Source of the DNA: an uncultured Altererythrobacter sp.
Lineage (GTDB): Bacteria > Pseudomonadota > Alphaproteobacteria > Sphingomonadales > Sphingomonadaceae
DNA length: 64,000 nt
Reading direction: 5' to 3'
Assembly (NCBI GenBank): GCA_913056125.1
Contig: CAJXNC010000001.1
Span: 248,001 to 312,000 of the forward strand
Shown here: positions 9,860 to 51,402 of the stretch, piece by piece
Numbering within the stretch: position 1 is the first letter of the stretch
Layout: each line of letters opens with the position of its first letter
Made by a program: the position numbers and the translations under genes
The notes under the pieces: generated by a model
The model's input: the letters and a program-made list of their open reading frames with translations, nothing else
The model's database searches: none
Told to the model about the DNA's origin: nothing

Positions 9860-10831
9860 CTAGCCCTGTTCACGCACCGCAGAGGGACTTGATCCCGTAT
9901 GCTGCTTGTAGCTGCGGGAGAAGTGACTTGCACTCCTGAAGCCGCAGGCCAGCGCAATTTGCGTAACCGATAGGCCAGTGGAGCGCAGCAGGTGTTCGGC
10001 GCGTGTGAGCCTGATATCGAGATAGGTAGCGCTGATGGTCTGCCCCAGTTCGGCAAGGCACAGCCTTTCCAGTTGCCGCAGCGAGATTCCGGCAATCTGC
10101 GCCAATCGGGTGCGGGAAAGCGGCTCCTCCAACGCGCCTTCCATCGCTGCCAGCATCCGCAAGAGACGCATGTTCACCGTGCCGAAGCGTTCCTTCAAGC
10201 TCGGCCGCTGCGACGCCGTACCTGTTCGCGGCTGGGTACGGATGAACCATTCGCCCACGCGCGCTGCCAAGGCGGGGCCGTGGTCGCGCTCGATCAGCGA
10301 AATAGCAAGGTCCATGCCTGCCGTGCCGCCGGCGCAGGTCATGCGCGCGCCGTCGATCACGAACAGGCTCGGCTCAAGTTCGAGCTCGGGAAATTCCTGC
10401 GCCAGTGCCGGGGCATGCTCCCAGTGGATCGTTGTGCGGTATCCCTCGAGCAGGCCAGCTCGGGCGAGCAGGTACGGGCCGCCTGATACGCCCGCGAGAT
10501 GGGTGCCGCGCCGCGCCCGCGCGCGGAGCCAGGCGAAACATGTCCGGTCCTTGAAGCTCGCCGGATCGCCTGCTGCGAAGACGAAGATGCGTGAGCACTC
10601 GGGGGCGCTTGCCATGTCGCAATCGGCCTTGATGGTCATGTGGTTCGACGCGCTCACTTGTGAGCCGCTCACAGCGATGTGGTTCCAAGCGTAGAACTCC
10701 TGCCCGGCAAGCACATTGGCCGCCCGGAAGGGCTCGACGATGGAGGCATAGGACATCAGCGAGAACCCCTCGACCAGCAGCAGGCCAAGACGGATGGGAG
10801 CTCTTTCAGGGATGGCGTCGCTTACAGACAT
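9860..10831 (-). CDS. GlxA-family (DJ-1/PfpI + AraC) transcription regulator of the methylamine cluster
   Basis: The product has 323 residues. The N-terminal part (about 10-180) is a DJ-1/PfpI glutamine-amidotransferase-like sensor domain; the C-terminal part (about 215-315) is an AraC-type double helix-turn-helix (LAQIAGISLRQLERL and VTQIALACGFRSASHFSRSYK). The layout matches GbdR/GlxA-type activators, some of which control betaine, sarcosine or methylamine catabolism. It is divergent from mgdA, so it probably controls that operon. The start ATG at 10831 is chosen by family fit; the frame stays open to 10885. A 12-bp direct repeat overlaps the start region. No good ribosome site is seen at either start, so the N-terminus is uncertain. 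Confidence 0.88.
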   Translation of the reverse strand: MSVSDAIPERAPIRLGLLLVEGFSLMSYASIVEPFRAANVLAGQEFYAWNHIAVSGSQVSASNHMTIKADCDMASAPECSRIFVFAAGDPASFKDRTCFAWLRARARRGTHLAGVSGGPYLLARAGLLEGYRTTIHWEHAPALAQEFPELELEPSLFVIDGARMTCAGGTAGMDLAISLIERDHGPALAARVGEWFIRTQPRTGTASQRPSLKERFGTVNMRLLRMLAAMEGALEEPLSRTRLAQIAGISLRQLERLCLAELGQTISATYLDIRLTRAEHLLRSTGLSVTQIALACGFRSASHFSRSYKQHTGSSPSAVREQG

Positions 10832-10851
10832 GATTATGACGCTTACAGACA
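10819..10851. promoter_or_regulatory. Direct-repeat operator candidate, 21-bp spacing
   Basis: CGCTTACAGACA occurs at 10819-10830 and again, identical, at 10840-10851. The 21-bp spacing is two helical turns, the usual geometry of paired AraC-family half-sites. The repeats lie 65-97 bp upstream of mgdA and overlap the start of the divergent regulator gene. A coding micro-duplication is an alternative, since both copies read LSVS or MSVS in the regulator frame. Confidence 0.4.
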
Positions 10852-10915
10852 GGATTGAGCTTCGGAAAGCCCATATCATTGGCACTCAACCCTTCGGACG
10901 AGTGCTCACGCCTCC

Positions 10916-12169
10916 ATGCGCTATTCGATTGCATCGCTCGCGGCTCAGGCCTTCAAGGGCCACCGCAACTGGCAGCCCGCCTGGCGCAATGCCAGCCCGG
11001 CCGAAGGCTATGACGTGGTCATTGTCGGCGGCGGCGGCCATGGGCTGGCGGCGGCCTATTACCTCGCCAAGGTTCACGGCATCACGCGCGTCGCCGTGCT
11101 CGAAAAGGGCTGGATTGGCGGCGGCAATGCGGGGCGCAACACCACCATCATCCGCTCCAATTACGGACTGCCGGGCAACGAGCCTTTCTACGAATTTTCG
11201 ATGAAGTTGTGGGAGGGGCTGGAGCAGGACCTCAACTACAATGTCATGGTCAGCCAGCGCGGCATCGTGAACCTGTTCCATTCGGATGCGCAGCGCGATG
11301 CCTATGCAAGGCGCGGCAATGCCATGATCCTGCACGGAGCCGATGCGCAATTGCTCGATGTCGATGGCGTGCGCAGGCTCGCCCCCTTCCTCGATTTCGA
11401 GAATGCCCGCTTCCCGATCCAGGGTGGACTATTGCAGGCACGCGCCGGGACCGCGCGGCACGATGCCGTGGTCTGGGGCTATGCCAGGGCGGCTTCGGCG
11501 CTCGGCGTAGACATCATCCAGAATTGCGAGGTCACGGGCTTCCTCACCGATACAGCGGGCGCGGTCACGGGCGTCGAGACTTCGCATGGCACGATCCGGG
11601 CGGGCAAGGTGGGCCTCTCCGTAGCGGGCAATTCGGGCCGCGTCGCCGCGCTTGCCGGTCTGCGCCTGCCGATCGAAAGCCATGTGTTGCAAGCCTTCGT
11701 GACCGAGGGCCTCAAGCCCGTCGTGCCGGGCGTCATCACTTTCGGCGCGGGCCATTTCTACATCAGCCAGTCGGACAAGGGCGGGCTGGTCTTTGGCGGC
11801 GATATCGACGGCTACAACAGCTACGCCCAGCGCGGGAACCTGCCGGTGGTCGAGGATGTCTGCGAAGGCGGCATGGCGGTGATGCCCGCCATCGGCCGTG
11901 CGCGCCTGCTTAGGAGCTGGGGCGGCATCATGGACATGTCGATGGATGGCTCCCCGATCATCGACCACTCGCCGATCGGCGGCCTCTATCTCAATTCGGG
12001 CTGGTGCTATGGCGGCTTCAAGGCGACGCCCGCCGCCGGATATTGCCTCGCCCACTTGCTTGCGACCGACGCCTCGCACGAGGTGGCGAGGGCCTTTGCG
12101 CTCGACAGGTTCCGCACCGGTCACCTGATCGACGAAAAGGGAGCGGGCGCGCAGCCCAACCTCCACTGA
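10916..12169 (+). CDS. mgdA: N-methylglutamate dehydrogenase subunit A (SoxB-like flavoprotein)
   Basis: The product has 417 residues and matches the beta subunit of heterotetrameric sarcosine oxidase: an N-terminal FAD site (VVIVGGGGHGLAAAYYLAK, about 37-55), the GGGNAGRNTTIIRSNY block and a C-terminal HSPIGGLYLNSGWCYGGFKATP block. In the N-methylglutamate pathway the homologous MgdABCD complex oxidatively demethylates N-methylglutamate to glutamate and a formaldehyde-level C1 unit carried on tetrahydrofolate. I call it mgdA rather than soxB because mgsABC and gmaS are in the same cluster. The start at 10916 fits the family N-terminus (MRYS), although the ribosome site is poor. It overlaps mgdB by TGATG. 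Confidence 0.9.
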   Translation: MRYSIASLAAQAFKGHRNWQPAWRNASPAEGYDVVIVGGGGHGLAAAYYLAKVHGITRVAVLEKGWIGGGNAGRNTTIIRSNYGLPGNEPFYEFSMKLWEGLEQDLNYNVMVSQRGIVNLFHSDAQRDAYARRGNAMILHGADAQLLDVDGVRRLAPFLDFENARFPIQGGLLQARAGTARHDAVVWGYARAASALGVDIIQNCEVTGFLTDTAGAVTGVETSHGTIRAGKVGLSVAGNSGRVAALAGLRLPIESHVLQAFVTEGLKPVVPGVITFGAGHFYISQSDKGGLVFGGDIDGYNSYAQRGNLPVVEDVCEGGMAVMPAIGRARLLRSWGGIMDMSMDGSPIIDHSPIGGLYLNSGWCYGGFKATPAAGYCLAHLLATDASHEVARAFALDRFRTGHLIDEKGAGAQPNLH

Positions 12170-38538: not shown

Positions 38539-38634
38539 TGGCGGAAGAGAGTGGGGGTCGAACCCACCCGGGACCGGCTGACGGCCCCACCCGGTTTTGA
38601 AGACCGGACGTACCACCGGGTACGAATCTCTTCC
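38539..38634 (-). tRNA. selC: tRNA-Sec (anticodon UCA), CCA encoded
   Basis: On the minus strand this folds as a selenocysteine tRNA. It has an 8-bp acceptor stem (GGAAGAGA with TCTCTTCC), a 6-bp D stem (CGTACC/GGTACG), a 5-bp anticodon stem with loop CTTCAAA (anticodon TCA at 38598-38600), a long variable arm, and a T arm GTGGG-TTCGACC-CCCAC. Discriminator G and CCA are genome-encoded. The long acceptor and D stems and UCA anticodon are diagnostic. It lies 4 bases downstream of the selB stop on the same strand, so it may be co-transcribed. Confidence 0.96.
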
Positions 38635-38638
38635 TTAC

Positions 38639-40576
38639 CTAGGCTGCTTCGCGCACCTCCTCCCGGAACTGCGAGATGCGCGGCGGGTCGATAAGCCTGA
38701 CGTCGCCGCGCCGCAAGGTCAGCCTCCTGCGGTCGAACCACTCGAGGAGCTGGATCGTCACCTTGCGGCCATTCTCCAACCTGTCCCGCACATGGATCAC
38801 GCCGAAAGTGCCATCCTCGCTTTCGCTAGCCAGCTCTTCGAGCACGGCGGCGATTTCCTGCAAGGTCTCGCGCAGGAAATAGTGTTCGGGCGCGATTTCG
38901 ACTGCGTGGCCCTGTCGCGCCATCAGGCGCAGCACGTTGCGGCATTCGAATTCGCGCGCCTGCAATTGTTCGGCAATCTCGCTCGTGCGTGGAGGGCGGA
39001 AGCGGTTTTCGCCTGAAAGCAGCGGCTCGATCTTCTGCCAAAGCGCCTCTTCCTGCCGGTCCGGGCCGAGCTTGTGGCCTGGCAGGCGCAGCATGCCCGC
39101 TTCCTGCTGCAGCAGCCCGCGACCGACCATCAGGCCGATCGCCGCGGCCGCAACATCGTGCGAGACCGGCGGATCGAGCGCGTTTTGCAGCCGTTGTAGG
39201 TTGGGTCCCAGGAAATGGGGGAAACGCTCATGGAAGCGGCCAACCTCCTCCAAGGCGCAACGTGTCAGTCTTTCCCAGCTATCGGGCGCAAGGAGATGCG
39301 TCTTGCCATCCGCTTTTGCAGCGATGTGCGGCACGCTGCCGAGGATCGCGGAAAGCTGCTCCCCGCCCAACGCCCGGTCGCGCGCGAATTCCTCCAGCTC
39401 GACCGACCAAGGCCAGATGGAAAGCTGTGCCGCGAGCGACGCGGTGGGGTCCTCGATATCCATCGCATCGAAGCGGGCCAGTTGCCGCGGCTGCCTGCGT
39501 CTGCGTCGCGGCGCGCGCAGGTTCACGATCCGGCCACCACCTATGGTTCGGCGTCCTTCATTGTCGCGCAGGATGAAGCGGTCGCCAATGGCACCTGCAA
39601 TGTTCTGTTCGAGCACGATCTGGATGCGGCCGCTACCGCCCGGTCCGATCGGCTGGTCGTCGAGCAGGGCGATGCGCGCCGGAAACTCTCCGGCACCATG
39701 GTGCAGGCGAACCGGTTGCCACTGGCTGAGCGACCGTTGCTCGCTGTCGAGCAGGTGCACAAAGGCGTTGAAGCGCTCGGTCGGGGCGTGGAGGGCGGGA
39801 TCGAGCAGGAAGTCCCCGCGTGAAACCTCGGACAGGTCGACCCCGCCAAGGTTCACACCGCAGCGCTGTCCCTTGTGTCCGGTGTCGGCGGGCCTGTTTT
39901 GCACATGCAAGGCGCGCACGCGCGCCTCCGTACCCGATGGCGAGATTATCAACCTGTCGCCGACCTTGATCTCGCCCGAGAGCACAACCCCGGTCGCCAC
40001 TGTGCCGCTGCCGAGAAGGGTGAAGGTACGGTCCACGGCGAAGCGAAGCGGCCCCTTGGCGTCGGGAGGCGCAGTCTCGCGCGCAGCATCCTCGAGCGCG
40101 GCCCTGAGTTCGCCTATGCCGGTGCCATCGACTGTCGAAGTGCGTATGATGCGGGCACCGGATAGGCAGGTCCCTTCGAGCAGTCCGACAATCTGCGCCT
40201 CGACCTCGACAATCCGCGCCTCGTCCGCGAGGTCGCATTTGGTCAGCGCCACCATGCCGCGCGTCACGCCCAAAAGGTGAAGCACGGCCAAGTGCTCACG
40301 CGTCTGCGGCATAATCCCGTCATCGAGGGCGACGGTCAGCAGGACGAAATCGACACCGCCAGCGCCCGCCAGCATGTTCTTCATGAAACGTTCGTGCCCC
40401 GGAACGTCGACGAAGCCGATTACCTCGGCATTGCCGAGCGGGAGATAGGCAAAGCCGAGGTCGATAGAGATGCCGCGCGTCTTTTCCTCGGGCAGGCGAT
40501 CAGGATCGGCGCCGGTCAGTGCAGTAACCAGCGCGGACTTGCCGTGATCGACATGCCCTGCGGTACCGACGATCAT
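38639..40576 (-). CDS. selB: Selenocysteine-specific elongation factor
   Basis: The product has 645 residues. The GTPase domain has GHVDHGKS (7-14), DVPGHERF (57-64) and TKCD (112-115); EF-Tu-like domains follow, then a C-terminal set of winged helices that reads the SECIS hairpin. It delivers Sec-tRNA-Sec to in-frame UGA codons. The ATG at 40576 overlaps the selA stop as ATGA; the frame stays open to 40801 within selA, which is not coding for SelB. Length fits the family (about 610-650). The tRNA-Sec gene follows at once. Confidence 0.96.
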
Positions 40577-41931
40577 GGGCTTGCCAGATTGGCGAGGAAG
40601 CGGGGTTCCTCGTCCCTGCCGAGGCAGCGCAGGTCGAGCCGGAGCGCCCCTTCGGCAATGCGACCGATCACCGGTTCGGGGAGTGCGCGCAGGCGATCCG
40701 CGAGGCCCTCGATTTCCTCCGCTCCTACGGACCGCAATGCGAGGCCGGCGCTGGGCAGGGTCGCGGTAGGCGAAGCACCCGAGCCCACCTGGCTGCGGCA
40801 TGGCTCGACAGAGACGGACCAGTCTTCTCCCAGCGCCTCAGCCACAAGTGGAGCCAGCGCCTTGGCGCGGGCGAGGATCTCCTCGCTGGGCCGCTGGAGC
40901 ATGGCGAGGATGGGAATTGCCTCTTCGGGCCGGGCTGCTGCGCGATAGGACCGTAGCACCGCCTCGAGCGCGGCAAGCCTGATCTTGTCGAGCCGCAGTG
41001 CGCGTTTCATCGGGTTCTTGGCCAGCTTCTCGGCAAGGTCCGCCCGGCCGACCACGAATCCCGCCTGCGGCCCGCCGAGCAGCTTGTCGCCCGAGAAGGT
41101 GACGAGGTCCGCGCCCTCGGCCACCGCTTCGGCCACGGTCGGCTCCTTGGGCAAGCCGTAGCGCGAAATATCTACCAGCGTGCCCGAGCCAAGGTCGTTG
41201 ACAAGCGGCAGGCCGTGTTGCTTCGCCAGCGGGGCCAGTTCGGATGCCGTCACGTCCTTGGTGAAACCCTCGATCCGGAAGTTCGAGGGATGCACCTTCA
41301 TGATCAGCCGCGTGTTCTCATTGATGGCGTTGGCGTAATCCTTGAGGTGCGTGCGGTTGGTGGTGCCGACTTCGACCAGTTTCGCACCCGTCGCCGCCAT
41401 GATGTCGGGCATGCGGAAGGCGCCGCCGATCTCGATCAGCTCGCCCCGGCTGACAATGACTTCTCCGCCCTTGGCCAGCGTATCGAGCACCAGCATGACG
41501 GCAGCGGCATTGTTGTTGACCAGCACCGATCCGGGCGCGCCGGTCAGTTCGGCGAGGTGTTCGCGCAGCACGCTGTCGCGCTCGCCTCTCTTGCCTGTGG
41601 CAAGGTCGTATTCCAACGCCACCGGGCGGGCCATCGCCGCAGCTGCCGCATCGACGGCGGCTTGCGGCAGGATTGCGCGGCCCAGATTGGTATGCAGCAC
41701 GGTGCCGGTCAGGTTCCAGACGGGCCGCAATTGAGGAAGGTCACTTGCGGCAAAGCCCTGCGCCGCCGCTTCCAGCAGTTCGCCTTCATCGAAGCTCTCG
41801 GCGGCGCGTCCCGCTTCGATTGCCGCGCGCAGGGCGGCCACGGTCGGCTTGTGCCCATATTGCGCAAGCAGCACCTGCCCGCCCTCGCTTTCGAGCAGGC
41901 GTGATACCGAAGGCGGGCGGGCAATGGTCAT
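40573..41931 (-). CDS. selA: L-seryl-tRNA(Sec) selenium transferase
   Basis: The product has 452 residues. It is a pyridoxal-phosphate enzyme with Lys283 in TFSGDKLLGGPQAG, the NNNAAAVMLVL and SRGELIEIGGAFRMPDIM motifs, and VHPSNFRIEGF. It converts Ser-tRNA-Sec to Sec-tRNA-Sec using selenophosphate. It is coupled to selB by ATGA and lies 14 bp after the TrxB-like gene, so selD, trxB-like, selA and selB likely form one operon. Confidence 0.96.
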   Translation of the reverse strand: MTIARPPSVSRLLESEGGQVLLAQYGHKPTVAALRAAIEAGRAAESFDEGELLEAAAQGFAASDLPQLRPVWNLTGTVLHTNLGRAILPQAAVDAAAAAMARPVALEYDLATGKRGERDSVLREHLAELTGAPGSVLVNNNAAAVMLVLDTLAKGGEVIVSRGELIEIGGAFRMPDIMAATGAKLVEVGTTNRTHLKDYANAINENTRLIMKVHPSNFRIEGFTKDVTASELAPLAKQHGLPLVNDLGSGTLVDISRYGLPKEPTVAEAVAEGADLVTFSGDKLLGGPQAGFVVGRADLAEKLAKNPMKRALRLDKIRLAALEAVLRSYRAAARPEEAIPILAMLQRPSEEILARAKALAPLVAEALGEDWSVSVEPCRSQVGSGASPTATLPSAGLALRSVGAEEIEGLADRLRALPEPVIGRIAEGALRLDLRCLGRDEEPRFLANLASP

Positions 41932-41945
41932 GCGTCAGACTTGCA

Positions 41946-42866
41946 CTACCAGGCGCCGCTGTCGAGATAGCGGGCGGCTTCGACGGCGGCGGTCGCCCCG
42001 TCACCCATGGCCCCGGCTGCGCGCCAGCTATTGCCCGAGCGCAGGTTGCCCACGGCGAACACGCCCTTGGCGCTGGTCCGCAATGCGCCATCGACGGCAA
42101 TGCGGCCATCATCGGCGAGTTCGACCAGATCGGCGGCGGGATCGAGATTGGGCTCTAGGCCCACAAAGGCGAACAGGCCCTGCACCTCCAGCGTGCTTTC
42201 CGCGCCCGAGGAAACCTCCTTCAGGATGACCTGTTCGAGCTTGTCCGCGCCGCTGATGGCGGTCACTTCCATGCCGGTCATCACCTCGATGGCAGGCTCG
42301 GCCTCGACCGCCTCGACATACGAAGCCTGGCCGCTCAGCGCCTCGCCGCGTTCGACCAGCAGGACTTTCTCGACATGTTGCGCCAGGGTAAGCGCCTCTT
42401 GCATGCCGGAATCGCCGCCGCCGGCCACGACCACGGTCTTGCCGCGCAGCAGCGGCCCGTCGCAGGTCGCGCAATGCGAGACACCGCGCCCGGTGAACTC
42501 TTCTTCGCCCGGAACGCCGAGCTTGGCGACATGCGCGCCCATGGCGAGGATTAGAGCGCGGGCGGCATATTCATTGCCATCGGCCAAGACCACATAGCCC
42601 TCATCCGATGAGCTGATCGTCTCGGCGGTTTCGGTGATGATCTCGGCCCCGGCAGCTGTCGCCTGGTCCATGGCGATGGGGCACAGGTCGAAACCGGCAA
42701 TGCCTTCCTCGTGGCCGGGAAGCCCGTCAATCAGCTCGATATTGAGCAGTTCGCCGCCCGGGACGCCGCCCGAAATCACACCCACGCTGCGCCCCAGCCG
42801 CGCTGCGGTCAGGGCTGCGCTGAGGCCGGCGATCCCGCCGCCGATCACGATAATGTCGAATTCCAT
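41946..42866 (-). CDS. Thioredoxin-reductase-like flavoprotein in the sel operon
   Basis: The product has 306 residues: an FAD site (IIVIGGGIAGLSAALTAARLG, 5-25), a redox pair Cys132-Cys135 (SHCATCDGPLL), an NAD(P) site (VVVAGGGDSGMQEALTLAQ) and the closing GVFAVGNLRSGNSWRAAGAMGDG. It is shorter and more divergent than housekeeping TrxB (about 320). Its place between selD and selA suggests that it reduces the selenoprotein at 44037-45710 or feeds electrons to selenium metabolism; this is inference. The start at 42866 is 10 bp after the selD stop. Confidence 0.9.
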   Translation of the reverse strand: MEFDIIVIGGGIAGLSAALTAARLGRSVGVISGGVPGGELLNIELIDGLPGHEEGIAGFDLCPIAMDQATAAGAEIITETAETISSSDEGYVVLADGNEYAARALILAMGAHVAKLGVPGEEEFTGRGVSHCATCDGPLLRGKTVVVAGGGDSGMQEALTLAQHVEKVLLVERGEALSGQASYVEAVEAEPAIEVMTGMEVTAISGADKLEQVILKEVSSGAESTLEVQGLFAFVGLEPNLDPAADLVELADDGRIAVDGALRTSAKGVFAVGNLRSGNSWRAAGAMGDGATAAVEAARYLDSGAW

Positions 42867-42876
42867 GTGTCGTCCT

Positions 42877-43953
42877 TCAGTCTGTCACTACGGCGAGTTT
42901 TGGCGCGCCTGCGCGGACCTCGCCAATGATGGCTGCTTGGGTGAAACCTTCTGCGTGGATCAGGGCGAGCACCTCTTCGGCGGCCTCTGCCGCGAGCGAG
43001 ACCAGCAGCCCGCCTGAAGTCTGCGGATCGGCCAGCAGGTCGCGCTGCCAGTCGGGCAGTCCATCGGGCATCGCGATTCCGTCAGCGGCGCTGGCCAGAT
43101 TGCGGCTCGATGCTCCGGTGATCTTGCCCGCCTGCGCCAGCTCCCCCGCTTGCTTAAGGAGTGGAACCTTGTTCGCATGTACTTGCAGCGTCAGGCCCGA
43201 TGCGCGCGCCATTTCGAGGCCGTGGCCGACAATGCCGAAGCCCGTCACATCGGTGAGGGCATGGATCGCCGGATGCTGGCCCAGTGTCAGTCCCACCGAA
43301 TTGAGCCGCGTGGTGCTCTCGACCATTTCGGCATAGCCTGCATCGTCCAGCTCGCCCTGTTTCAGCGCGGCGGAATAGACGCCGACGCCGATCGGCTTGG
43401 TGAGGATCAGCACATCGCCCGCCCGCGCACCGGCATTGGTCTTCATATGCTCGTGCTTGACCTCACCGATCACGGCGAGGCCGTAAATCGGTTCGGCGCT
43501 GTCGATCGAATGGCCACCTGCCACGGGAATGCCCGCGGAGGCACAGGCGGCAGCGCCACCTGCCAGGATTTCGCGCACGGTTTCGGTTGCGATCTTGCCA
43601 AGCGGGATGCCGAGGATGGCCAGCGCGAATAGCGGTCGTGCGCCCATGGCATAGATGTCCGAAATCGCATTGGTCGCCGCGATCCGCCCGAAATCGCGTG
43701 GATCGTCGACAATCGGCATGAAGAAATCGGTGGTGGAGACGATACAGCGGCCATCTCCGCCTTCGAGCTCCCACACCGCGGCGTCATCCGCAGCCCCATT
43801 GCCCACCAGCAATTGCGGAAAGCCGCTGGCGGCGAATTGCCCTTCGAGCAGTTCGCGCAGCACGCCGGGCGAAAGCTTGCAGCCGCAGCCACCACCATGG
43901 GCGAGCGCGGTCAGGCGCGGCTGGTCTGACAAATCGGGCTGTTGCGCTTGCAT
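42877..43953 (-). CDS. selD: Selenophosphate synthetase
   Basis: The product has 358 residues. The active-site loop [11 protein letters not shown] has Cys23 and Lys26, which align with Cys17 and Lys20 of E. coli SelD, so this enzyme uses Cys, not Sec. Further family blocks are [32 protein letters not shown] and [15 protein letters not shown]. It makes selenophosphate from selenide and ATP. The selenoprotein gene ends 83 bp upstream on the same strand. The ribosome site before 43953 is only moderate. Confidence 0.96.
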
Positions 43954-44036: not shown

Positions 44037-45710
44037 TCAGCGCCACTTGTCGATCGAGAGCAATTTCCCGGCGGTCTGCGATGGACGCCGTTCATTGCCG
44101 CGCGGCATTTGCCCCACCAGCCGTCCGCTGATCATCTTGAAGGCACCCTGCGTCTCCCCGCCGGTTACCAGGATCTCGATATCCTTATCACTGAAGATGC
44201 TGATCAGCTCGTCCGGATCGGCGCGCAAACGGCTGGCAGCAGGTTCGATCCCGGCTTCGGCATGTGGCTTGACCAGCGTGGTGGTCCACTGGTCGTCCCA
44301 GTAATACTTGGCCTTCATCTTTGCGTTTTCGGCGCACCATTCGATCAGGCCTTGCTTGGTAAAGCCCATCTTGTTGAAATCTTTCGCGACGAGCGGGTCC
44401 ATCACGATGAAGGGGTTGGAGAAGTGGTCCGTCGCTGTCAGGCAGCGGATGAACTTTTCCTTCCACGTCTCGCGCGGGCCGAAGCCGCTTTGCGTGTACC
44501 AGCCGCCGAAGAAGATCGCGGCTGTGCTTTCCTCCGCCTTGTGGCCCTTTTGCACGTGGAACGGCTCCCACGGGCTTGCTTCCTCGTTCTCGGCGAAGCA
44601 GGCGGTGTAGTTCCAGTTGCTGCCGACCGATCCCATGTATGTATTGCCCGGCTCGCTGCCGCCCTGCGCATTCATGCTGAGCAGGCAATAGGCGCGCCCG
44701 ATCGAGGCATTGGCCTGGTTGTAGGGGCCGAGCGCGCCGATCCCGTAATTCATGCCGATCTCGTTGCGGATCGGACCGTTGATGCAGCTGATCGTCGCCC
44801 AGCTGGTGGTCGAGCTTGAGCGCGCGGAGAAGCCTGAGGAGCACAGCGCCAGGATGACGGGGAGGTATTCGGGCCGTGCGCCCGCCATTACCGCGTTGAT
44901 AGCCACCTTCTCGACATCGAAATCCCACTTCTCACGGAAGGCCGTTGGGCTCATCCGGTTGACGAACTCATCCGCCGCATGGCTCGTGCCCTTGAGCATG
45001 GCCTCGACGCGCTGCTCGGTCGGCAGGATTATGGGGAGGAAATCGGTCCACCCCTCTTCGATGAAGAGCTGGCGGATATTGTCTTCCGTATCCGGTTCGA
45101 GGAAGCGCGGCGTGGTGCGTTCGAAGCTGGCATCGGCATAGTCTTCATCGGTCAGCGGTCCGGTCAGACCGTCGAGCACGACTTGCATGAAGGGCTTCTT
45201 GGCGATCGGATCGTCGGCTTCGATATAGGCGCGCAGCTCTCCGGGGGAGAGACCGACGACCGGCTGCGGGACGAAGGCGTTGCGCGTGGTCGGCATGCCC
45301 GCCGCCTTGGTGGTGGCCTTGGCCAGCCGCGCGAAGGCGTGGGTGCTCACCGGGATCGTCGGGATCCCGGCCTTTTCCAACTCCAATGCGAACCCCACGA
45401 CCGTGGGGCAACAAGTGCTTCAGAGGCCAACGCCAATGATGGCGGCGTCGCCTCCGGCGACGACCTTGGCTCTCATTTCAGGATCGTCGACCCAGCTTTC
45501 CTTGGGCCGGATCATGCGCGTTTCGACCTTGGGCATGTGCTCGGCAAACCACAGCCGCAGCTGCTCCATGAACACGTCCGCATTATCGAACAGGCAGTCG
45601 ATCAAATACAGGACCTTGCCATCGAGCGTTTCGGGCCGGATGGCGAGGCGCTTGCCTTCGACCTTTGGCGGGTAACCCCGCGGGTCCATTACCGTGATTT
45701 TCTCGGCCAT
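44037..45710 (-). CDS. Selenoprotein with in-frame UGA (UGSC-like family), Sec at residue 97
   Basis: The gene reads through one in-frame TGA (45420-45422) to give 557 residues. Before it lies IIGVGL and after it STCCPTVVGFALELEKAGIPT, so the joined motif is GVGL-U-STCC with Sec97 and Cys100/Cys101. The continuous similarity of both halves to proteins I know as the UGSC (seleno)protein family is from memory and not checked; the function of that family is unknown to me. The large second part is rich in conserved blocks (LRAYIEADDPIAKKPFMQ, LPIILPTEQRVEAMLKGTSH, NGPIRNEIGMNYGIGALGPYNQANASIGRAY). No signal peptide or membrane segment is seen. The ATG at 45710 has AGGGAA upstream. A SECIS-like hairpin follows the UGA, and all sel genes are adjacent. 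Naive annotation would split it into 96- and 453-residue pieces. Confidence 0.93.
45393..45422 (-). promoter_or_regulatory. SECIS-like hairpin directing UGA recoding
   Basis: Reading the minus strand: TGA, then 11 bases, then CCCCAC (45408-45403), loop GGTC (45402-45399), then GTGGGG (45398-45393). The perfect 6-bp stem, GGUC tetraloop and 11-base distance match the minimal E. coli fdhF SECIS recalled from the literature. Unlike fdhF there is no bulged U in the stem. It overlaps coding sequence, as bacterial SECIS elements do. Confidence 0.85.
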
Positions 45711-45816: not shown

Positions 45817-46838
45817 TCAGGCCTGGTGGTCGGTCCCGACGCAGAACGGGCAGTTCGACACCCAGTGGCCGGGCTGCATTTCCACCAGCGGCGGCTCGAC
45901 GGTCTTGAGCTCCTCGCTATGTTCGACCGGGCTGCGCGGCCAGAACTTGCACCCGTCGGGCGGCGACATGGGCGAGGGCGGATCGCCTTCGAGCACGATG
46001 CGATGGCGGTTTCGCTCGGCATTCGGGTCCGGCTCCGGAATCGCGCTCATCAGCGCCTTGGTGTAGATGTGCAGCGGATGATCGACGATCGCCTCGGCAT
46101 CGCCCAATTCGATGATCTTGCCCAGATACATCACCGCGATCCTGTCCGAGATATAGCGCACCACTGACAGATCGTGGCTGATGAAGATCATGGTCAGGCC
46201 CAACTCGCGGGTCAGGCGCTTGAGCAGGTTTAGGATCTGCGACTGGATCGACACGTCGAGCGCCGAGACAGGCTCGTCGGCGATGATCAGCTCGGGTTCA
46301 GGGGCAAGCGCGCGGGCAATCGCCACGCGTTGGCGCTGCCCGCCGGAGAATTCGTGCGGATAGCGCTTCATCTGGAACGGGTTCATGCCGACCGTGCGCA
46401 GCAGCTCCGCAACGCGGCCGCGCAGCGCGTCGCCCTTCAGCTCGGGATGTCGCGTGCGCACCGCTTCGCCGAGCGTATCGAGCACCGTCATGCGCGGATT
46501 GAGCGAGGCGTAGGGATCCTGGAAGATCATCTGGAAGTTGATCCGCTCGCTGCGAATATCCGCGTCGGAGATCGCGCTCAGCTCGCGGCCCTTGAGCCAG
46601 ATATGCCCGGAAGTGGGGCGCAGCAGCTGCATGATCGTGCGGCTGAGCGTGGACTTGCCGCACCCGGACTCGCCGACCAGGCCAAGGATCTCGCCCTTGT
46701 TGATCGTCAGCGAAACGCCGTCGACCGCCTTGACCACGCCCTTGCTTTCGCGCGTGAGCAGCGTTGTGCCCATGTCGAAATGGGTCTTCACCTCGTCGAG
46801 GACGAGGAAGTCCTCCTGCGGATTGCCGATCAGCGCGT

Positions 46839-46842
<4 letters not shown>
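45817..46842 (-). CDS. oppF: Oligopeptide ABC importer ATPase (OppF-like)
   Basis: The product has 341 residues with Walker [10 protein letters not shown], the Q-loop [34 protein letters not shown] and a C-terminal Cys-containing extension ([16 protein letters not shown]) seen in OppF/DppF proteins, which can hold an Fe-S cluster. The start at 46842 overlaps oppD by ATGA. It is the last gene of the opp operon; the selenoprotein gene starts 106 bp beyond on the same strand. Confidence 0.95.
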
Positions 46843-47879
<1,037 letters not shown>

Positions 47880-47883
47880 CAGG

Positions 47884-48804
47884 TCAGTCCTTGGCGCTCT
47901 TGGGATCGAGCGCATCGCGCAGCCCGTCGCCGATGAAGTTGAGGCAGAACAGCGTCACCGCGAAGAAGGCGGCGGGGAACAGCAGCAGCCAGGGATAGAT
48001 TTCCATATTCGCCTGCCCCTCATTGATGAGTACGCCCCAGGAGGCGTTGGGCGGCTGCACACCGAGGCCGAGAAAGCTCAGGAAGGCCTCCAGCAGCATG
48101 ACGGCGGGAACGGTCAGCGTGGCGATCACGATCACCGGGCCGAGCACGTTGGGGATCAGGTGGCGCAAGATGATGCGGCTGTGCGAATAGCCGAGCGAGA
48201 CCGCGGCCTCGACAAATTCCTGCTTCTTCAGGCTGAGCACGCCCGAGCGCACGATACGCGCCATGGAAAGCCATTCGACGCAACCGATGGCGACGAACAT
48301 CAGCCACATGGAGCGTCCGAAGGCGACCATCAGCAGGATCACGAAAATGGTGAAGGGCAGGGCGTAGAGCAAGTCCACGAAGCGCATCATGGAGGCATCC
48401 ACCTTGCCGCCGATATAGCCCGCCGTGGCGCCGTAGATCACGCCGATGGCTAGGGCCACGACCGTGGCGACGAGCCCGACCATGAGCGAGATTCGCCCGC
48501 CGACCATGACGCGCACCATCAGGTCGCGGCCGAGCGTATCGGTGCCGAACCAGTGATCTGCAGAGGGGCCTTCCGCGCCGGAAAACAGGTCCTGCGCATT
48601 GGAGTCATAGGGAGAAAGGAACGGGCCAAGGACGCAGAACAGGCATATGAGGACGAAGACGACGAGGCTGCCCACGGCAACCTTGTTCTTCCTCAGCCGG
48701 GCCCAGGCGTCCTTCCAGAGCGAGGAACCTTCGACCAGCTCTTCCTCGGCGATTACCGGGGCGGAGTCCTTTCCCAGGACGGCGGTTTCGGAGTGATCAG
48801 TCAT
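47884..48804 (-). CDS. oppC: Oligopeptide ABC importer permease (OppC-like)
   Basis: The product has 306 residues: a cytoplasmic N-terminus of about 40 residues, a helix at about 44-64, a periplasmic loop with SADHWFGTDTLGRDLMVRV, five more helices and the coupling motif EAAVSLGYSHSRIILRHLIPNVL. The length matches E. coli OppC (302). It overlaps oppB by 8 bp. Confidence 0.95.
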   Translation of the reverse strand: MTDHSETAVLGKDSAPVIAEEELVEGSSLWKDAWARLRKNKVAVGSLVVFVLICLFCVLGPFLSPYDSNAQDLFSGAEGPSADHWFGTDTLGRDLMVRVMVGGRISLMVGLVATVVALAIGVIYGATAGYIGGKVDASMMRFVDLLYALPFTIFVILLMVAFGRSMWLMFVAIGCVEWLSMARIVRSGVLSLKKQEFVEAAVSLGYSHSRIILRHLIPNVLGPVIVIATLTVPAVMLLEAFLSFLGLGVQPPNASWGVLINEGQANMEIYPWLLLFPAAFFAVTLFCLNFIGDGLRDALDPKSAKD

Positions 48805-49714
48805 ATTTCAACCGCGGATTGAGGGCGACCTGCACGATGTCGACAAGCAGGTTCATGATGACGATCATCGCCGCGAACAGGACGGTCAGGCCCAGCACGA
48901 GGAAATCGTCACGGTTGAGGGCAGCGCGTACGAACCATTGTCCGAGGCCGGGGATCTGGAAGATTGTCTCGACCACGAAAGAGCCGGAGATAATCCCCGC
49001 CAGCGCCGGGCCAAGGAAGGTGATGGCCGGGATCAATCCGCCCTTGAGGCAGTGCTTCCAGATGATCGTGTGTTCGGGAACGCCCTTTGCGCGCGCCGTG
49101 CGCACCCAGTCCTGGTTGAGCATTTCCAGCATGCCGCCGCGCGTCAGGCGGGCGAAATAGGCGGCGTAATAGAGGCCCAGCGTGGTTGCCGGGAGCACGA
49201 CATATTCGGGACCATACCAGCCTGCTACGGGCAGCATCTTCAGGATCAGGCCGAAGACCAGCGCCAGCAGTGGACCCATCACGAAGGTCGGCAGGCAGAT
49301 ACCGGCCATAGAAACCGACATGGGCAGGTAATCGAGCCAGGTATTGCGCTTGACCGCAGCAAGGATGCCGGCGGGAACGCCCAGCACCAGCGCCAGGAGC
49401 AGCGAGATCGAACCCAGCTTGATCGAAACCGGGAAGCTTTCGGCGATGATTTGCGTCACCGTGCGGTTGGCATAGACTGCGGAAGGTCCGAATTCGCCCT
49501 GCAGGACATTGCCGAGCGAGGTGATGAAGCGTTCGCCCAGCGGTTTGTCATAGCCGTAAAAGGCCTCGATCTGGGCAAGGATTTCCGGGGCGATCGCGCG
49601 TTCGGAACTGAACGGGCTGCCTGGGGTCGCGGCGACCAGAACGAAGGTCACGGCGTAAATGCCCAGCAGGACGAGCATTCCCTGCAGCAGCCGCAAGGCT
49701 ATGAATTTCAACAT
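48797..49714 (-). CDS. oppB: Oligopeptide ABC importer permease (OppB-like)
   Basis: The product has 305 residues, as E. coli OppB (306). It begins with FIALRLLQGMLVLLGIYAVTFVLV and has the coupling motif VRTARAKGVPEHTIIWKHCLKGGLIP and the IPGLGQWFVRAALNRD loop. It forms the membrane channel with OppC. It follows oppA by 41 bp, a gap in which I see no clear hairpin. Confidence 0.95.
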   Translation of the reverse strand: MLKFIALRLLQGMLVLLGIYAVTFVLVAATPGSPFSSERAIAPEILAQIEAFYGYDKPLGERFITSLGNVLQGEFGPSAVYANRTVTQIIAESFPVSIKLGSISLLLALVLGVPAGILAAVKRNTWLDYLPMSVSMAGICLPTFVMGPLLALVFGLILKMLPVAGWYGPEYVVLPATTLGLYYAAYFARLTRGGMLEMLNQDWVRTARAKGVPEHTIIWKHCLKGGLIPAITFLGPALAGIISGSFVVETIFQIPGLGQWFVRAALNRDDFLVLGLTVLFAAMIVIMNLLVDIVQVALNPRLKYD

Positions 49715-49755
49715 GTCTTGATCATCCGGCCTGCTGCATCCTCATTCCGTTTCTG

Positions 49756-51402
49756 TTATTCGCCTGCATCGCCATTCGGCTGCAGCCAGACATATTTGTA
49801 GGGGTGGGCATCGAGCAGTTTGGGATGCCATTCCTGCACCATCGGGCTCATAAGCTTGACGCGCGTGTACCAGTAGATCGGGATGATCGGCATCTCCTCG
49901 AGCAAGAGGTCCTCCGCCTCGTGGAAGAGTTCCATTCGCTCTTCCTCGGTTTCGGCCACCCAGGATTGTGCGACAAGCGCATCGTAGCGCGTATTGCTCC
50001 AGCCGGTGTCGTTATTGCCATTGCCGGTGGTAAACATGTCGGTGAAAGTCGAGGGATAGACGAAATCGCCGATCCAGGCCGAGCGCGAGATGTCGTAATC
50101 GAGGTTGGACTGGCTATCGAGATAGACCTTCCATTCCTGGTTGTAGATGCCGACATCTATGCCGAGCTCTTCGCGCCAGAGGGCCTGGATCGCTTCGGCA
50201 ATCTTGCGATGGGCCTCGCTGGTATTGATCATGATCTCTGTGCGGGGGAAGCCTTCGCCGCCCGCATAGCCCGCCTCGGCCAGCAGTCGGCGCGCCTCGT
50301 CGGGATCGTACTGGACTGCGGTGGAGGGCTCGTAGCCGGGGATGCCCGCAGGTACGAAACCTGTTGCCGGGGCCTGCCCGCCCTTGGTCACCCGCTCGAC
50401 GATTGTCTGCTTGTCCAGTGCCAGCGCCAGCGCGCGGCGAACGCGCACATCGGTGAAAGGTTCGCGCGTCACGTTGAGGCGGTAGAAATAGACGCCCAGG
50501 TAAGGCGTGATGCTCATTTCTTCGGGCATCTCCTCCTGGAAGAAGGGAATCTTGTCCGGGTTGACCGTATTGGTCATGTGCAACCGATCATTGCGGAACA
50601 TCGTCTCTTCGGTGTTGGCATTGTCTATCGGGTAGAAACGAATGCCGTTGAGGCGGACGGTTTCTGCGTCCCAGTAGGTGGGACTCCGCTCGACCTCGAT
50701 CACCTGGTTGGTGACCCATTCCTTGAGCTGGAATGCGCCGTTGCCGACATAGTTTTCGAAAGTGGACCAGCCGCTCTGGCGGTCCAGCATGCCGCCATTT
50801 TCTTCCACCGCGCGCGGGTTTACCGGGAAATAGCTGGTATGCTTGATGACGTTGAGGAAGTGCGGGGTCGATCCCTGCAAGGTTACCTGCAGCGTCTTGT
50901 CGTCCAGCGCCTTGACGCCGACCTGGCTGAAATCCTCGATCTCGCCGCGATTGAACTGCTCTGCATTCTCGATGAGGTAAAGCATGGGCGCATATTCGGC
51001 ACCCAGTTCGGGGCTGAGGATTCGCTGCCAGCTATAGACGAAATCGCTCGCCAGCACCGGGTCGCCATTGCTCCACTGGGCATCGCGCAGATGGAAGGTC
51101 CAGACCGAGAAATCCTCATTGCTCTCCCAGCTTTCGGCCATGCCCGGAGCAGGCTCGAGGTCGTTGGTCGGGTGGCTGGCGATGAGGCCTTCGAGCAGGG
51201 AGCGGATGATCGTGCTCTCAGGAACACCCGTGACGAGATGCGGATCGAGACCCTTGGGCTCCGAGCCATTGCCCATCAGGAGGATACCTTCCTGGGCAGC
51301 TTTTTCGGTTTCGGGAATTCCGCCACCGCAGGATGTGACGGTGAGTCCAAGAATGGCAACGAGGAAAAGGCGCGCAAAAGCACGCATGAATTGAGGGGTC
51401 AT
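49756..51402 (-). CDS. oppA: Oligopeptide-binding protein, lipoprotein form (OppA-like)
   Basis: The product has 548 residues. A lipobox ends at Cys25 (LTVTSC-GGG), so it is a lipid-anchored periplasmic binding protein, unlike the free OppA of E. coli. The SBP_bac_5 fold opens with MGNGSEPKGLDPHLVTGVPESTIIRSLLEGLI and holds LRDAQWSNGDPVLASDFVYSWQRILSPE, both typical of OppA/MppA. The start could also be ATG 51387; neither has a strong ribosome site. It is the first gene of the opp operon and diverges from pobA across 179 bp in which no clear operator is seen. Confidence 0.93.
   Translation of the reverse strand: MTPQFMRAFARLFLVAILGLTVTSCGGGIPETEKAAQEGILLMGNGSEPKGLDPHLVTGVPESTIIRSLLEGLIASHPTNDLEPAPGMAESWESNEDFSVWTFHLRDAQWSNGDPVLASDFVYSWQRILSPELGAEYAPMLYLIENAEQFNRGEIEDFSQVGVKALDDKTLQVTLQGSTPHFLNVIKHTSYFPVNPRAVEENGGMLDRQSGWSTFENYVGNGAFQLKEWVTNQVIEVERSPTYWDAETVRLNGIRFYPIDNANTEETMFRNDRLHMTNTVNPDKIPFFQEEMPEEMSITPYLGVYFYRLNVTREPFTDVRVRRALALALDKQTIVERVTKGGQAPATGFVPAGIPGYEPSTAVQYDPDEARRLLAEAGYAGGEGFPRTEIMINTSEAHRKIAEAIQALWREELGIDVGIYNQEWKVYLDSQSNLDYDISRSAWIGDFVYPSTFTDMFTTGNGNNDTGWSNTRYDALVAQSWVAETEEERMELFHEAEDLLLEEMPIIPIYWYTRVKLMSPMVQEWHPKLLDAHPYKYVWLQPNGDAGE

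Follow-up and report, generated by a model that had tools for sequence, protein, structure and literature searches.

The minus-strand gene at 44037-45710 of the window (the whole 64,000-nucleotide stretch analysed, from an uncultured Altererythrobacter sp.) almost certainly encodes a selenoprotein, judging from its sequence and that of its relatives. It belongs to the UGSC family, and its gene neighbourhood and distant homologies suggest a reductase fed by a thioredoxin reductase (TrxR)-like flavoprotein.

A UGSC gene with an in-frame UGA

Read from 45710 on the minus strand, a 96-codon open reading frame starting with ATG ended at a TGA (45422-45420). A 453-codon frame starting with GTG began seven codons past this TGA and extended to 44037, in the same frame, as the preliminary description had reported. 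Reading the TGA as selenocysteine (Sec) gave a protein of 557 amino acids (557 codons and a stop) with no other in-frame stop, in which a UGSC domain (residues 6-162; 45225-45695) was fused to a second, C-terminal domain (about residues 203-557; 44040-45104). The Pfam model PF24696 (UGSC family) matched a segment that contains the TGA (residues 6-162; E 6.6e-25, 88.6 bits against a cut-off of 25), which bears out the earlier assignment to a UGSC-like family. The halves on either side of the TGA each matched the model on their own. Since the match spans the TGA, the continuity of the reading frame across it is not a product of chance.

A single in-frame TGA was present at the same place in six relatives, with identities down to 42%. 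These were Croceibacterium soli (87%), a Sphingomonadaceae MAG (83%), a Bradyrhizobiaceae MAG (74%) and, more distantly, a Rokubacteria MAG (48%) and two Acidobacteria MAGs (42 and 44%). In total, 31 UGSC domains were drawn from the window and 25 fetched stretches. Two were dropped before counting, one from Sporomusa with neither Sec nor Cys and one partial match (L041). Position 97, the proposed Sec codon (45420-45422), was Sec in 17 domains and Cys in 12, the alternation that the preliminary description had proposed to look for. On the 29-row tree the exchange of the two residues required seven changes, at least five of which were forced by well supported branches. Cys100 (45411-45413), the partner of Sec97 in a UxxC motif, was present in all 15 aligned full proteins. 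Cys101 occurred in five of them, namely the window protein, the three relatives nearest to it and an Acidobacterial paralogue. The earlier proposal of a redox centre with Sec beside Cys100 and Cys101 therefore stands for Cys100 and falls for Cys101, and the alignment suggests that the redox pair is Sec97-Cys100. The bare TGA-N6-TGY pattern was rejected as evidence, as it was observed 70 times in the window against 58 expected.

Under the standard code the UGA is a stop, and this is the sole point in favour of a pseudogene or a sequencing error at codon 97. The same UGA across three phyla, conserved coding on both sides of it and a complete adjoining set of sel genes make such an explanation exceedingly improbable. 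We give hardly any credence, either, to the UGA being a true stop that yields subunits of 96 and 453 residues. The two open reading frames do share one frame, and two genes for the UGSC system do occur in other lineages. However, the short gene of the two-gene lineages examined continues beyond the Sec/Cys position, with the break falling between the domains, and the Cys relative L010 is continuous. The preliminary description regarded the two frames as one gene, and none of the two-gene lineages examined was divided at the UGA.

Selenium genes and the SECIS-like hairpin

Past the selenoprotein gene and on the same strand, the order was selD, a TrxR-like gene, selA, selB and the tRNA-Sec gene. 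The matches were to selenophosphate synthetase for selD (42877-43953; TIGR00476, 400.9 bits, cut-off 125), selenocysteine synthase for selA (40573-41931; TIGR00474, 556 bits, cut-off 267.9) and the Sec-specific elongation factor for selB (38639-40582; TIGR00475, 421.5 bits, cut-off 242.25). The tRNA-Sec gene, selC (38539-38634), had the anticodon TCA (RF01852, 79.1 bits, gathering cut-off 47). The Sec machinery by which bacterial selenoproteins are judged (SelA, SelB, SelD and tRNA-Sec) is thus present in the genome.

Among 396 genomes of the order, nine had a UGSC relative and three had SelA. These three were the same three that carried a TGA in the UGSC gene, and the six other carriers had no stop (Fisher p 9.7e-8 over the 396 genomes and 0.012 within the nine). 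Formate dehydrogenase is a common Sec user. Since none of nine matches to formate-dehydrogenase-type proteins in the three SelA genomes had an in-frame stop, this enzyme is not the reason for their sel genes. A two-gene UGA-containing UGSC locus in genome G692 (L042) lay near selA and selB, and clustering of UGSC with sel genes thus recurs outside the order.

A SECIS-like hairpin (45392-45409, minus strand) with a 7-bp stem and a GGUC loop followed the UGA, its stem starting at the 11th base. The median energy of the best hairpin was -11.9 kcal/mol in the 17 Sec genes and -4.95 in the 12 Cys genes (p 7.5e-6). Compared with synonymous recoding, the mean z was -1.51 for Sec genes and +0.14 for Cys genes (p 1.8e-4). 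Both p values are optimistic because the 17 Sec rows include four near copies and five rows from one Acidobacterial stretch; singly, seven of the 17 rows reached 5% against synonymous recoding, four of them near copies. The window hairpin was unremarkable against dinucleotide shuffles (z -0.97 and -0.39). The Cys genes are the better control, since they are under similar protein constraint. A SECIS-like hairpin directly after the UGA is thus indicated by the comparison of Sec with Cys genes and not, in the shuffles, by the window alone. A scan for promoters and terminators was uninformative. Decoding of UGA 97 as Sec by the adjoining SelA, SelB, SelD and tRNA-Sec set, via the hairpin, is strongly supported by these comparisons.

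Status and annotation of the UGSC family

The preliminary description took this type of selenoprotein to be unlisted, which was mistaken. A family of "UGSC-containing proteins" has been in print since at least 2008 (PMC2398784) and is modelled in both Pfam (PF24696) and NCBIfam (NF041046). In the parts of the 2008 paper available to us the Sec domain is described as thioredoxin-like and the family has no stated function, in keeping with the earlier remark that none was known. The window protein is a member of PF24696, as it is over the gathering cut-off and carries the U/CxxC motif, here with Sec, where the family has it. Against the equivalog model NF041046 (UGSC_fam) it scored 67.6 bits, under the 125-bit cut-off, and it is not filed there. 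Like the family, it has a UGSC domain, Sec in UxxC and Cys homologues. Unlike the family, its motif is U-S-T-C and not U-G-S-C, and unlike the 147-position NF041046 model it is 557 residues long with a second domain. The UGSC/Unknown_1 fusion of the GOS survey also joins a UGSC domain to a conserved unknown domain, according to the available part of that report (PMC2398784), and perhaps has the same architecture. This likeness is one of description.

Gene callers had been expected to split or truncate such genes, and plasmid records provided examples. On the conjugative IncP plasmid p2-T1 of Acidovorax sp. T1 (L044:8001-9650) the UGSC gene is full-length and contains the UGA, yet the record shows a 97-codon "hypothetical protein" ending at the UGA and no gene for the remainder. 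On pFER4 of Paracoccus ferrooxidans (L093:5360-5929 and 10332-12107) a short UGA-containing UGSC gene is listed as two hypotheticals flanking the UGA; a second-domain gene follows it, with selB about 3 kb further on. The UGSC-type gene on pNgVX of Neorhizobium galegae VafX2 (L045:7962-10545) is recorded as two hypotheticals that overlap, and a TrxR-like stretch lacking annotation there is in two pieces, pointing to possible frameshifts or a decaying locus in that record.

Two further loci departed from the usual form. The homologue on plasmid pSPTER of Sporomusa termitida (L048:7659-9383) had Met in place of Sec and Ser in place of Cys100, and had thus lost both catalytic residues while keeping the two-domain layout. 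An Acidiferrales MAG (L005:3826-17241) held five paralogues of UGSC plus second domain within 14 kb, each with an in-frame UGA. By eye, three of these had a signal-peptide-like start, which in two of the three opened with RRK as in a Tat signal, and these three are possibly exported selenoproteins.

The second domain

The C-terminal domain was matched by none of the Pfam families; with E allowed up to 10, the top rows were at chance level (0.15-0.26). It was fused to the UGSC domain in the window protein and all six relatives; the same fusion was seen in Neorhizobium, Variovorax boronicumulans, Acidovorax and Sporomusa. A separate gene adjoining a short UGSC gene encoded it in other sphingomonads, Roseovarius, Arthrobacter and several haloarchaea, where the break fell between domains rather than at the Sec codon. 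From this distribution of fused and adjacent genes, we conclude that the second domain belongs to the UGSC system.

The AlphaFold model of the second domain (pLDDT 79.1, pTM 0.82) had no PDB match in Foldseek at E up to 0.001. Several weak rows, with E of about 1 and above, were to cyclic-amide hydrolases (Toblerone fold), and because of these and of malonate genes found near UGSC, barbiturase-like chemistry was considered. A cyclic-amide hydrolase was ruled out by a profile probability of 0.1% against four PF09663 proteins, three of them sound and one (L099) read on the wrong strand.

The TrxR-like neighbour

The proposed electron donor is a TrxR-like flavoprotein encoded at 41946-42866 on the same strand, just past selD. 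It resembles thioredoxin reductase (TrxB) in its Pyr_redox_2 domain and CATC motif. Unlike TrxB, it scored 266.4 bits against TIGR01292, below the cut-off of 343.45, and two more TrxR-like genes lie elsewhere in the genome.

Of 13 genomes, 6 had a TrxR-like gene no more than 5 kb from UGSC, where 0.1 would be expected (P 2.4e-10), and the other 7 had none in this range. In the fetched stretches of four of the six linked genomes (G366, G117, G530 and G534) no sel gene was found, so the sel operon does not by itself account for the link. Sequence comparison also placed a TrxR-like gene beside UGSC in four plasmids (two of Variovorax, one each of Neorhizobium and Roseovarius). By annotation, Arthrobacter (L092) has the order trxB-trxA-second domain-UGSC, and in Haloterrigena an oxidoreductase of similar size, known by name only, is nearby. 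No annotated TrxR stood beside UGSC in 11 of the 17 plasmid stretches viewed, one of which was unannotated, from a total of 24 plasmid matches.

A tree was made of 32 TrxR-like proteins, with several long branches; on it, the linked state required at least three changes, compared with 9.8 in shuffles. Nine of the 12 linked proteins fell outside the main TrxR group and three inside it. Seven of 39 rows were omitted from this tree, four as short or weak and three as copies. Gene position suggests that the TrxR-like protein is the electron donor.

Predicted fold and relation to GrdB and PrdB

AlphaFold modelled the whole protein with a pLDDT of 80.7 and a pTM of 0.77. In the UGSC domain strands and helices were predicted to alternate, with Sec97 right after strand 89-95 and Cys100 at the beginning of the next helix, a layout that is Rossmann-like in the prediction. 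The thioredoxin-fold topology, used for comparison, was not found in the predicted model, which does not support the thioredoxin-like fold given in print. In Foldseek the whole-protein model had no PDB match at E up to 0.001, and none of the best 50 of 1572 matches was named thioredoxin. A sequence search of the PDB gave no match up to E 10 with the window protein and two chance-level rows with a GRDB-type protein.

Aligned by hhalign to seven PF07355-type proteins, the UGSC profile gave a probability of 94.4% and a score of 56.5 over 66 columns, with the Sec/Cys columns of the two families coinciding. The seven sequences came from the same class, a further GRDB-type row (L054) having been left out because it was in the wrong frame. 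Controls scored lower: none of 150 column shuffles exceeded 22.3, the reversed profile gave 13.3, and 15 other families, several of them represented by thin alignments (1-4 relatives), reached no more than 19.7. PF07355 includes GrdB and PrdB of the glycine/sarcosine/betaine and D-proline reductases, and the UGSC proteins are like these in that UxxC follows a strand and precedes a helix and then a "GIPT"-like strand. They differ in that none of the 15 family members matched PF07355 directly or is filed there, and in a second domain that matches no Pfam model. By profile comparison, then, the UGSC domain is distantly homologous to PF07355 and not a member of it.

The second domain was also considered as a counterpart of PF09338, which we take to be the pyruvoyl-type partner subunit of GrdB/PrdB. 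PF09338 had no match in 299 genomes including the organism's own; the control gave no match either. Eight alphaproteobacterial PF07355-type genes (L053-L060) had a U-PxC motif, seven with an in-frame UGA and one (L059) with Cys.

Neighbouring genes and possible substrates

An oligopeptide-type ABC importer (oppF, oppD, oppC, oppB and oppA, 45817-51402) is encoded upstream of the selenoprotein gene, likewise on the minus strand. No opp set was directly beside UGSC in L001, which had a TonB receptor upstream and an ABC permease and ATPase past the sel genes. In the Rokubacteria stretch (L003) an OppA-type binding protein adjoined UGSC. The Opp importer beside the window gene is probably a local feature and may not be part of the system.

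Many UGSC neighbourhoods were catabolic, with tripartite/TRAP acid transporters, CoA transferases, acyl-CoA dehydrogenases, aldehyde dehydrogenases and LysR regulators. In genome G366 (L031) the genes after a UGSC-TrxR pair encoded an AMP-binding enzyme and malonyl-CoA decarboxylase. The N. galegae pair came after genes for malonyl-CoA decarboxylase and synthase. Malonate may be a product in these two clusters. Since the transporters and catabolic genes vary between clusters, no one substrate is indicated. A phosphosulfolactate synthase, by annotation, was near UGSC in Arthrobacter (L092) and Natrinema zhouii (L103), and an organosulfur link for UGSC is possible.

Proposed mechanism and alternatives

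GrdB and PrdB are thought to work by attack of Sec and resolution by Cys, a view drawn in part from a review (PMC13188914). By analogy, the two-domain UGSC selenoprotein would be the catalytic part of an NADPH-driven reductase. NADPH would reduce the TrxR-like flavoprotein, which would keep the Sec97-Cys100 pair reduced. The selenolate of Sec97, at the end of a beta-strand in the GrdB/PrdB-like Rossmann domain, would attack an imported organic acid that the C-terminal domain helps to hold, and a bond would be cleaved reductively. Cys100 would then resolve the selenium intermediate as an Se-S bond, to be re-reduced by the TrxR-like flavoprotein, directly or through thioredoxin. The reductive chemistry and the order of electron flow are inferred, and that the substrate is a carboxylic acid is a guess. 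We consider a TrxR-fed reductase the probable nature of the protein, if by a modest measure, and give the mechanism as a whole an even chance; bond cleavage of the GrdB type is a possibility towards which we are rather more sceptical. Several observations count against the mechanism. A TrxR-like gene is missing near UGSC in more than half of the genomes and of the plasmid stretches, and the GrdB link is at profile level. Some Acidobacterial copies have signal-peptide-like starts, by eye, and would not be reached by a cytoplasmic TrxR, and the Sporomusa homologue lacks Sec/Cys at both positions.

A UxxC motif with an adjoining TrxR, and once TrxA, would also be expected of a thiol-disulfide oxidoreductase of the thioredoxin type or an antioxidant, with the second domain as its target or regulator, and the available part of the 2008 account (PMC2398784) favours such a protein. 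This is rather unlikely given the predicted alternation of strands and helices with Sec after strand 89-95, the structure matches (no thioredoxin by name among the best 50 of 1572, and none at E up to 0.001) and the catabolic enzymes and acid transporters of many clusters. We attach similarly little weight to a non-redox enzyme (a racemase, isomerase or lyase) in which Sec or Cys acts as an acid-base or nucleophilic residue and TrxR protects it from oxidation. A reactive Cys/Sec where a strand ends in a Rossmann-like domain would suit such an enzyme, as would the CoA transferases, lyases and amidase nearby and the aconitase X genes that adjoin UGSC in Sporomusa and Vibrio. However, Cys100 is as invariant as position 97 (15 of 15), which suggests a redox pair, and on the tree no fewer than three changes are required for the linked state of TrxR.

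In the literature searched, from which most subscription papers and bioRxiv fell outside, there was neither a Rossmann-like prediction nor a PF07355 link for UGSC, and within the same limits neither the partnership with the second domain nor the recurrent TrxR-like neighbour was found. What is new here is a set of testable functional clues for a known family, as the recurrent partner domain, the recurrent proposed electron donor and the distant link to glycine/proline reductases make it an enzyme open to testing. The window is a compact case, with selenium genes, proposed donor and selenoprotein in one stretch, and it shows how annotation splits or truncates such genes. We tentatively suggest that UGSC, the second domain and the TrxR-like protein may form an unrecognised class of selenium-dependent reductase, related to GrdB/PrdB of anaerobes. 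It would break bonds of organic acids in catabolism in Erythrobacteraceae and other proteobacteria and, in its Cys form, in haloarchaea, and it might be the main or only reason for the Sec machinery in the few sphingomonads with the Sec form.
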